Shown in pieces: positions 7,204 through 51,729 of a stretch of 64,000 nucleotides of DNA. Position numbers and translations under genes: made by a program. The stretch is from Druceiella hillmani (Eukaryota; Arthropoda; Insecta; Lepidoptera; Hepialidae), in NCBI GenBank assembly GCA_039881145.1, contig JAYKKI010000087.1, forward strand, positions 8,424,001-8,488,000. The letters run 5' to 3'. The notes under the pieces are model-generated. The model did no database searches, was not told where the DNA came from, and was given only the letters and a program-made list of their open reading frames with translations. Each line of letters opens with the position of its first letter. Within the stretch, counting starts at the first letter, position 1.

Positions 7204-7376
7204 CTCACAATTCATCTTAATTGTATTACAACATCTTAATCTTAGTTTAAGATGTTGTAATACAATGAAAAGGTCGTGGTAAAGAACTTAAAGAGAGTAG
7301 AAATAATGCAACATCACATAGTTTCATTTAATTGTGAATAATTAATTTCTACAAAATTAACGCCAATTATATTAAA
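7204..7376 (+). mobile_element. Hammerhead-type Penelope-like insertion, copy A (decayed)
   Basis: This matches the family defined by copy B at 10535-10820. It carries a shortened inverted left arm, a short hairpin centred near 7238 (TTGTATTACAACATCTTAA and its complement), and then the right arm: GGTCGTGGTAAAGAACTTAAAG, a variant of the ACTACATCACGTAGTTTCA block, ATTTAATTGTGAATAAT, and the one-sided extension with TTTCTACAAAATTAACGCC. The ribozyme is destroyed. The CUGAAGA box reads TTTAAGA, and the stem III 5' strand is deleted so that GAAAAGGTC replaces GAAACCTAGGTC. I could not find a convincing target-site duplication, so the ends are approximate. This looks like the oldest or most rearranged of the five copies. 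Confidence 0.8.
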
Positions 7377-7433
7377 TTAATATTAGGCTAATATTATTTT
7401 GAATACCAAAATTATTTGAATTCCTAATTTATT

Positions 7434-10523: not shown

Positions 10524-10593
10524 GTTGTATTTGATCCACAATTAAATGAAACTACGTGATGTAGTATTATTTCTACTTTCTTTAATTTCTTTA

Positions 10594-10634
10594 CCACGAC
10601 CTAGGTTTCGTTGTATTACAACATCTTCAGGTGG
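10594..10634 (-). ncRNA. Hammerhead ribozyme, type I, minimal stem III (intact)
   Basis: Read on the minus strand from 10634 down. Stem I 5' strand is CCAC; the conserved box is CUGAAGA (10630-10624); one extra U follows. Stem II is GUUGU, loop AAU, ACAAC. Then GAA, stem III ACC with loop UA and GGU, the cleavage-site C (position 10598), and the stem I 3' strand GUGG (10597-10594). All four stem I pairs, five stem II pairs and three stem III pairs are Watson-Crick, and every invariant core base (CUGANGA, GAA, H17) is present. Predicted self-cleavage is between the C at 10598 and the G at 10597. The very short stem III is typical of hammerheads in Penelope-like elements. Activity may need a longer stem I or dimeric pairing. 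The call rests on sequence and pairing only. Confidence 0.85.
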
Positions 10635-10680
10635 GATATTAGCAAAGATATCGAAGATATAGAAGATCTTTGCTAATATC

Positions 10681-10721
10681 CCACCTGAAGATGTTGTAAT
10701 ACAACGAAACCTAGGTCATGG
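10681..10721 (+). ncRNA. Hammerhead ribozyme in right arm of copy B (one mismatch)
   Basis: The same motif as the left arm, on the plus strand: CCAC (10681-10684), CUGAAGA (10685-10691), extra U, stem II GUUGU/ACAAC, GAA (10706-10708), stem III ACC/GGU, and cleavage C at 10717. The first stem I pair is broken: position 10718 is A instead of G, facing C10684. This is the only difference between the two 113-bp arms and has the form of a CpG to CpA change. It should weaken but may not abolish cleavage (inference). Confidence 0.8.
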
Positions 10722-10831
10722 TAAAGAAATTAAAGAAAGTAGAAATAATACTACATCACGTAGTTTCATTTAATTGTGAATAATGAATTTCTATAAAAAT
10801 AAAGCCAAATATATTCCATAGTTGTATTTGA

Positions 10832-38800: not shown

Positions 38801-39455
38801 ATAAACCGATTATTTGGAAATAACCATCTAACATCTAGCATTTTTGACTACGCAAATTTTATTTCAGTAATGATGACTATTTGATACTTATTTTTCTGTA
38901 TGTTTCAAGATTTTTCATTCCTTGGTTTTTTCTCCTTTTTCATTGCATGATTTTAATTTTTAAATAAAAGGCCACCGCATATTAACTTTCTACTATACAA
39001 TTATAAGTTTTAAAATAAACTTTAAATCTCATAACATGGCATACATAATATATTACACATGCTTTTTATATATCGTAAGACAAACTAAACGAAAACATCC
39101 GAAAAACTCCCGAGCCTTGCCAAAAGCGACATCTATTTTCCGAATTGTTAAAACCTATTTTAATATCAAGAAAGGGCGAATAACTGCGGTCAGAGAGTCA
39201 TAAATAATGAAAATAATTCAACCGATGTAAGTATGTGAAAACATATGTAGGTAATTTACAGATTACCGAAACTGTTGTAATTACTAATAAATAAAGAAGG
39301 TGATGGAAGCTAGAGCAATGAAATATAAGTCATGCATTTTCATTTCCACATTCGATCTCCATGTTTAAAAACTTAATTTTGAAAAGCTAAATTACACTTA
39401 TCTAAAATTAGATAAGTATCATTCAGTTTTTTTTAGGATTAATAATATTTTTTCT

Positions 39456-39621
39456 CCACAATTAAATGAAACTACGTGATGTAGTATTATTTCTAATTTT
39501 GTAATACAACGAAACCTAGGTCGTGGTAAAGAAATTAAAGAAAGTAGAAATAATACTACATCACGTAGTTTCATTTAATTGTGAATAATGAATTTCTACA
39601 AAATTAACGTCAAATATATTC
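39456..39621 (+). mobile_element. Hammerhead-type Penelope-like insertion, copy C
   Basis: A 166-bp member of the ribozyme family, flanked by an exact 12-bp target-site duplication AATATTTTTTCT (39444-39455 and 39622-39633). A short inverted left arm (39457-39494) pairs perfectly with 39546-39583 over 38 bp. The centre keeps only the 3' half of the ribozyme: GTAATACAAC, GAAACCTAGGTC and GTGG are intact, but the CUGAAGA box and the 5' half of stem II and stem I are missing. The one-sided extension follows at 39584-39621. The left arm starts at the same base as in copies B and D but joins the centre at a different point. It has no coding capacity and cannot form a hammerhead by itself. Confidence 0.87.
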
Positions 39622-40724: not shown

Positions 40725-40958
40725 ACAATTAAATGAAACTACGTGATGTAGTATTATCTCTACTTTCTTCAAGTTCTTTACCACGGTCTAGGTTTCGTTG
40801 TATTACAACATCTTCAGGTGGGCTTGTGTGGTTTGGCTAAAGATTCTTTTTTTTCTTTTCTAGAACTTAAAGAAAGTAGAAATAATACTACATCACGTAG
40901 TTTCATTCAATTGTGAATAATGAATTTCTACAAAATTAACGCCAAATATATTCAATAG
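40725..40958 (+). mobile_element. Hammerhead-type Penelope-like insertion, copy D
   Basis: A 234-bp insertion with an exact 10-bp target-site duplication TTAAATTTTC (40715-40724 and 40959-40968). The inverted left arm begins at ACAATTAAATG, as in copies B and C, and contains a complete but mutated hammerhead on the minus strand. The centre carries a sequence shared with copy E (GGTGGGCT...AAAGATTC/AAAGAATC). The right arm begins after the ribozyme position at AGAACTTAAAGAAAGTAG and ends with the one-sided extension (40916-40958). The arms pair over about 54 bp with a few mismatches. No coding capacity. Confidence 0.87.
40781..40821 (-). ncRNA. Hammerhead ribozyme remnant in copy D (stem III broken)
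   Basis: Minus strand: CCAC, CUGAAGA, extra U, stem II GUUGU/ACAAC, GAA, then ACC UA GAC C and GUGG. Stem I, stem II and the conserved boxes are intact. The stem III 3' strand reads GAC instead of GGU, leaving only one of three pairs, so the fold around the cleavage site should be impaired (inference). Confidence 0.75.
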
Positions 40959-40968
40959 TTAAATTTTC

Positions 40969-51562: not shown

Positions 51563-51729
51563 GGATATATTTGGCGTTAATTTTGTAGAAATTCATTATT
51601 CACAATTAAATGTAACTACGTGATGTAGTAATATTTCTACTTTCTTTAAGTTCTTTACCACGACCTAGGTTTCGTTGTATTACAATATCTTCAGGTGGGC
51701 TGTTACCAAAGAATCGTTGCTTTTCTTAT
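51563..51729 (-). mobile_element. Hammerhead-type Penelope-like insertion, copy E (single arm)
   Basis: A 167-bp insertion flanked by an exact 15-bp target-site duplication CCTTTATAACATATT (51548-51562 and 51730-51744). In minus-strand reading it starts AAGAAAAGCAACGATTCTTT, runs into GCCCAC and the hammerhead, then the conserved block with ACTACATCACGTAG, and ends with the extension AATTAACGCCAAATATATCC at 51563. It lacks the inverted second arm, so it shows the basic unit of the family. The plus-strand 64-codon frame at 51362-51556 ends at the target duplication and is unrelated. Confidence 0.9.
51658..51698 (-). ncRNA. Hammerhead ribozyme in copy E (weakened stem II)
   Basis: Minus strand: CCAC, CUGAAGA (51694-51688), extra U, AUUGU-AAU-ACAAC, GAA, ACC-UA-GGU, cleavage C at 51662, GUGG. 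Stems I and III are fully paired and all conserved core bases are present. The first stem II pair is A-C instead of G-C. This is the second-best hammerhead in the window and may retain activity (inference). Confidence 0.82.

Follow-up and report, generated by a model that had tools for sequence, protein, structure and literature searches.

Whether the 41 nt at positions 10594-10634 of the analysed window (64,000 nucleotides of Druceiella hillmani DNA) constitute a hammerhead ribozyme that is cut in the living organism, and which element carries them, is the question raised by this locus. The evidence below makes it likely that the carrier is an inserted Penelope-like element (PLE) whose template RNAs are sometimes cut by the hammerhead before being copied, and that the window copy itself does not cleave from its locus. 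Read on the minus strand (10634-10594), the motif is CCAC CUGAAGA U GUUGU AAU ACAAC GAA ACC UA GGU C/GUGG, with the slash at the predicted cut, and contains all core bases (CUGANGA, GAA, A15.1-U16.1, and C17), together with 4, 5, and 3 Watson-Crick pairs in stems I, II, and III, respectively. The core with its cleavage C, the stems closed by Watson-Crick pairs only, and the cut between 10598 and 10597 were all recovered as given in the original prediction. The hammerhead described there as intact is so in sequence; the unpaired U at 10623, which lies between A9 and stem II and sets helix II off, is a deviation that had gone unmentioned and weighs against cleavage. With three helices in all, an open helix I, a very short helix III, and no visible contacts between loops I and II, the motif is, by its sequence, a minimal type I hammerhead of the PLE type with predicted self-cleavage, and its earlier reading as such a hammerhead in a retroelement with inverted arms was right. 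In addition, stem III and its loop form an 8-nt palindrome (ACCUAGGU).

The covariance-model check suggested with the original prediction gave little. No Rfam match at gathering, neither hammerhead nor microRNA, was obtained over the whole window, and the 16 Rfam matches in a 501-base stretch (E up to 10) included no hammerhead, the scores of their microRNA models being under gathering. Only in a 55-base search did Hammerhead_1 (RF00163) match the motif, with 16.6 bits (gathering 34, E 0.052), a below-gathering score that should be read with the scope of the model in mind, as it represents hammerhead_1 generally and not the PLE variants. The alignment ran end to end (model positions 1-45), with 14 nt including stem II left unspelled in the printed form. 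This match may be regarded as suggestive, not decisive.

Counting showed the motif to be more than chance. In the 2.586-Gb genome, the strict family pattern (core plus CGAAAC plus GUC at the right spacing) had 54,045 matches (26,969 + 27,076), whereas the reversed pattern had none. Similarly, the 26-base core with at most three mismatches occurred four times in the window versus none in 100 shuffles, and only the copy at 10594-10634 kept all stem pairs (Table 1). More family copies, some with truncated or changed motifs, were seen in the window at about 7245-7420 (+), 39440-39610 (+), 40725-40960, and 51590-51705 (-). Separately, five identical CTGATGA...GAAAC matches spaced 3,597-3,598 bases apart at G000:C1:8342179-8356598 apparently form a long tandem array unrelated to the PLE hammerhead family.

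Table 1. Coordinates of the window insertion, its parts, and the cores of other family copies
Feature	Position	Strand	Remark
Target-site duplication, left copy GTTGTATTTGA	10524..10534	.	
Two bases between target-site duplication and left arm	10535-10536		
Left arm, short 3' end (~10537), 5' end AUCUUUGC at 10649	10537..10649	-	
Minimal type I hammerhead motif, sequence-intact	10594..10634	-	predicted cut 10598/10597; extra U 10623
Bases between arms at head-to-head junction, 16	10650..10665	.	
Right arm, long ('tail') 3' end	10666..10820	+	
Second motif copy, right arm	10681..10721	+	first stem I pair broken, A for G at 10718
Target-site duplication, right copy GTTGTATTTGA	10821..10831	.	
Core of another family copy	40792..40817	-	two stem III bases changed, just outside core
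Core of another family copy	51669..51694	-	first stem II G to A

The motif is carried by a 286-bp PLE insertion (10535-10820) flanked by an 11-bp target duplication and without a coding part. Its inverted repeat (10534-10649 and 10666-10781) is 98% complementary, with the arms head to head and 16 nt apart; the left arm stops at ...AATTGTG, and the right arm is about 40 nt longer. In a longer relative, L067, a frame matching the reverse transcriptase family RVT_1 (35.8 bits, cut-off 29.6, E 8.9e-9) and a GIY-YIG endonuclease frame (21.6 bits, narrowly below the 22.6 cut-off, E 2.7e-4) were detected upstream of the same arm and on its strand, both several hundred bases upstream of the motif. The DNA just before it (L071) and L067 look like one larger inverted insertion: a minus arm with the short end, followed by a longer plus arm with reverse transcriptase, endonuclease, and long end. 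A GIY-YIG family search yielded two matches over the cut-off among the 150 scored of 1,572 candidates, one of them in L040, which contains motif-like copies. Moreover, the features of canonical PLEs were found, namely inverted pLTR arms with an optional tail at one end and target-site duplications (11 bp in the window; a shared stretch of at least 9 nt at the ends of 24 of 36 head-to-head pairs). As such, the window insertion is most directly read as a copy of a putative PLE with reverse transcriptase and GIY-YIG endonuclease; the small inverted-arm retroelement originally proposed does have inverted arms, but a separate element was dropped as the same arm sits in L067. A coding frame through the motif was likewise dropped, because the frames of L067 lie so far upstream, and a retrozyme was rejected since the 36 pairs among the arms are head to head, not tandem, and no loop contacts were seen.

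Folding analysis bears on whether this copy acts where it lies. The minus-strand transcript across the insertion had a predicted fold of -196.7 kcal/mol in which the hammerhead pairs had a probability of 0.0 and the hammerhead bases were paired with the other arm at 0.999; whichever strand is transcribed, the other arm comes first. Cleavage from the window locus is therefore unlikely, and the claim of an intact ribozyme holds for the sequence but not for the predicted hairpin, which sequesters the hammerhead. The copy is a relic in a dead insertion and, according to this model, most likely silent at its locus.

The original prediction also held that the motif is conserved while its surroundings vary, which was not borne out. 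In 55 arms found by whole-arm similarity, 46 of 2,255 cells (2.04%) differed in the motif compared with 63 of 2,915 (2.16%) in the next 55 nt (14 of 105 arms were dropped as late-starting and three subfamily sites excluded). The counts were 37/1,148 in the motif and 68/1,484 after it for 28 arms picked by the motif pattern, a sample biased for the motif, and 27/328 and 14/424 for eight arms failing that pattern, a sample biased against it. The apparent conservation is thus an effect of arm end points, because the rest of the arm shows the same degree of conservation as the motif, and conservation was rejected as a sign of function. Furthermore, 91 arms gave no sign of compensatory stem changes (one pairing double change, 18 still-pairing single changes, and 59 broken cells), a weak test when all copies are dead and belong to a single family. 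A look for covariation between families examined 100 of the 1,055 matches in which a different base follows AUG; these look like variants of the same family, the only one seen in the genome. A separate observation is that the stem II region was 3 nt shorter (TGT in place of TGTTGT) in 17 of the 100 copies at the head of the listing, a change far commoner than substitutions that breaks stem II; it occurred on one arm only in insertions L051, L057/L058, and L060/L061, raising the question of reverse transcriptase slippage or two different RNAs per insertion.

The ends of the arms follow two rules. With R coordinates set as L067:1481-1640 and 3'-end classes split at R125 and R150, the 3' ends of 105 deduplicated arms fell mostly into two classes, short and long. 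Head-to-head pairs (n = 36) comprised 29 short/long, one long/long (in a four-arm locus), no short/short, and six unclassed pairs, and 20 further loci chosen for a junction at the cut were short/long in all 15 classable cases (five unclassed), giving 44 of 45 classable pairs overall. Equal ends, as expected of fold-back self-priming, were nearly absent, which favours two priming events. Paired arms differed by 5.1% compared with 6.8% in shuffled pairs (0/2,000 shuffles as low), indicating that they share one source. For the 5' ends, 81 of the 85 scorable arms (of 105) started at R1-R4, including 55 at R2 (AUCUUUGC), while two started far upstream (L067 and L071) and two extended upstream by one or two bases; of the rest, 14 started later and six had no seed. 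Among arms not picked by similarity to the 5' stretch (L041 onward and the window), 34 of 38 started there. This clustering at R1-R4 indicates that the element RNA starts at a fixed point, 52 nt ahead of the cut. Across the genome, two arms met near the AUCUUUGC end with at most eight bases between anchors at 6,268 loci (reversed control, 0). A small AC-rich hairpin (ACTAC-ATCAC-GTAGT) was also seen between the motif and the short end, just before the end points (L067 1530-1636 and other arms).

A further set of junctions lies at the predicted cut. Two-arm junctions with both stops inside stem I or shortly upstream of it were found at 476 places per strand (control, 31). Fifty places were listed, and 47 of them were scored after removal of three nested duplicates: 51 of 94 arms stopped at GUGG, the first base after the predicted cut, with three arms one base upstream and six one base downstream. 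A few of the 51 may be intact arms in which the base at the cut has mutated. Another 16 stopped two bases downstream, at the edge of the pattern, and some of these look like mutated copies. In the control intervals the ends were spread, the top position holding 20 of 98 arms downstream (from 49 of the 50 places listed) and, upstream, 15 of 100 arms, there at the interval edge. The single-arm sample, which includes mutated intact arms, gave a weaker signal: of 100 ends, 15 fell at the cut, 7 on each side of it, and as many as 17 at the edge. Genome-wide, 106 loci were detected in which two arms, separated by at most eight bases, meet with both ends at or near the cut (reversed control, 1), compared with 9 loci for arms reaching 3 nt further upstream. 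Of the 50 listed, 43 were exact on both sides by the set rule, and 40 of these held 1-8 extra bases; the first added bases were T 47, A 19, C 13, and G 1, where the next base of the template would be G. In 20 fetched loci, both BLAST starts were exactly R54 in 14, the flanks were all different, and 11 shared an end stretch of at least 9 nt, each distinct; the cut-junction loci are separate insertions. They amount to about 1-2% of such junctions (106 vs 6,268, with patterns that may lose copies to mutation unequally). Two loci, L072 and L087 (G000:C1:615775 and C3:62947844), have the same eight extra bases between cut-ending arms, in opposite sense relative to the short and long ends and with different flanks. 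The pile-up resembles a footprint left in vivo by template RNA that had been cleaved, and sister copies ending exactly at the predicted cut suggest that the cut happens in the living organism. This footprint formed no part of the case made in the original prediction and is the best sign of hammerhead activity.

Other origins of the pile-up were weighed against this evidence. The one that survives best, although we consider it unlikely, is that no hammerhead cut occurs in vivo and that transcription of the PLE has a minor start at GUGG. A transcription start is also the simplest account of the major 5' end at AUCUUUGC, and the C-G step at GUGG would suit one too. Consistent with this, no RNA reads ended at the hammerhead cut of the lizard element PAc (PMC11167929). 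A minor start would, however, have to coincide to the base with the predicted cut. Less probable still is that the pile-up reflects not RNA ends but the way cDNA ends are joined, or RNA structure halting reverse transcriptase. Joining at self-complementary sites is indeed common in the family, at AGATCT and at CTAG, on which seven of the nine loci with arms 3 nt longer are centred, but CCAC is not self-complementary, which favours run-off over palindrome joining, and the extra bases in most exact junctions also speak against it. A structural stop would be expected before stem I, at about R58, and not after GUGG had been copied, again favouring run-off at an RNA end. Both alternatives fit less well than cDNAs running off a genuine RNA end. 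Finally, that the arms represent a microRNA precursor or a DNA transposon of the foldback kind, with a chance likeness to a hammerhead, as their long near-perfect hairpin and the sub-gathering microRNA scores might suggest, is hardly credible given the RVT_1 and GIY-YIG frames upstream of the same arm, the short/long end rule, the target duplications, the strict pattern count, and the lack of any gathering-level microRNA match over the window, and the microRNA precursor was dropped.

The reading of hammerhead-cut PLE templates can be set out as follows. The element RNA would start at AUCUUUGC and carry a minimal hammerhead whose cut lies 52 nt further in. Reverse transcription would begin at either of two sites separated by about 40 nt, which would give rise to the short and long 3' ends observed, with both target strands presumably priming it, one per start site. 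Usually, both cDNAs would run off the nearby RNA 5' end and be joined head to head, leaving two short arms; occasionally, the hammerhead may already have cut the template RNAs, so that both cDNAs run off at GUC/GUGG, where the ends pile up. Such pre-cutting probably takes place in a dimer through the palindromic stem III, as the palindrome ACCUAGGU points to dimer action. The unconstrained cofold of two copies gave exactly the double-hammerhead pairing at -23.0 kcal/mol, an energy that is not unusual (74 of 500 shuffles were as low). Cutting of both arms of one insertion fits a modelled dimeric hammerhead and also fits one cut RNA copied twice. On balance, we lean towards the junctions being a fossil record of in-cell cleavage, with about 1-2% of two-arm junctions derived from pre-cut templates. 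That both arms are cut is what a dimeric hammerhead would produce by keeping two template RNAs together, each target end then copying one from a different start site. The window copy would be held in duplex by its other arm and probably does not cleave from its locus. Looking for such a footprint takes no more than counting insertion junctions in any PLE-rich genome, and it opens two models of PLE insertion, the dimer and the two start sites, to direct testing.

Several parts of this picture are already known from the accessible portions of earlier reports, namely the minimal hammerheads of PLEs, their cleavage as dimers, and the tail (PMC7761336, PMC6155905, PMC11167929, PMC3846280). No junction footprint at a PLE hammerhead cut was announced in the open-licence literature surveyed, as far as its accessible text goes, a set without the key papers of 2014 and 2017. 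For PAc, a Poseidon-type PLE of Anolis, the accessible text of the report describes cleavage that needed protein and was dispensable for insertion in vitro, and a tail that is the stretch between two reverse-transcription start sites (PMC11167929). The window family resembles it in having a hammerhead near the RNA start, two start sites explaining the tail, and both target strands cut and extended, and its ACTAC-ATCAC-GTAGT hairpin is similar to the AC-rich stem loop at the reverse-transcription start of PAc. In vitro, the two target strands did not differ in the start site used by the lizard element, so the short/long rule would govern how ends are paired and not which strand receives which end. 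The PAc cut lies 26 bp after the start codon, and the AUG-to-cut spacing is close in the window family; unlike in PAc, its AUG at the hammerhead is directly followed by UUG UAA, so no reading frame is opened.

The Penelope families of Adineta vaga, as far as described in the accessible text (PMC3846280), share inverted pLTRs with a 31-bp tail on one, head-to-head palindromes, and target duplications of 9-10 bp, like the duplications found here; their authors favour self-priming for the inversion, whereas the short/long rule favours two primings. Like retrozymes, as portrayed in the available part of their report (PMC7229834), the family combines a type I hammerhead with a short, very abundant non-coding repeat, but retrozymes are tandem with canonical hammerheads, whereas the window family is head to head with a minimal one. 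The motif also resembles the minimal type I hammerheads of PLEs, which are reported in print to cleave as dimers (PMC7761336 and PMC6155905, in the portions available, citing Cervera and de la Pena 2014 and Lunse, Weinberg and Breaker 2017). Type I topology, a stem III that is very short and, being palindromic, suited to dimers, the lack of visible contacts between loops I and II, and location in a PLE repeat region are common to both, while the window motif has its own sequence and adds the cut footprint and the two-end rule.
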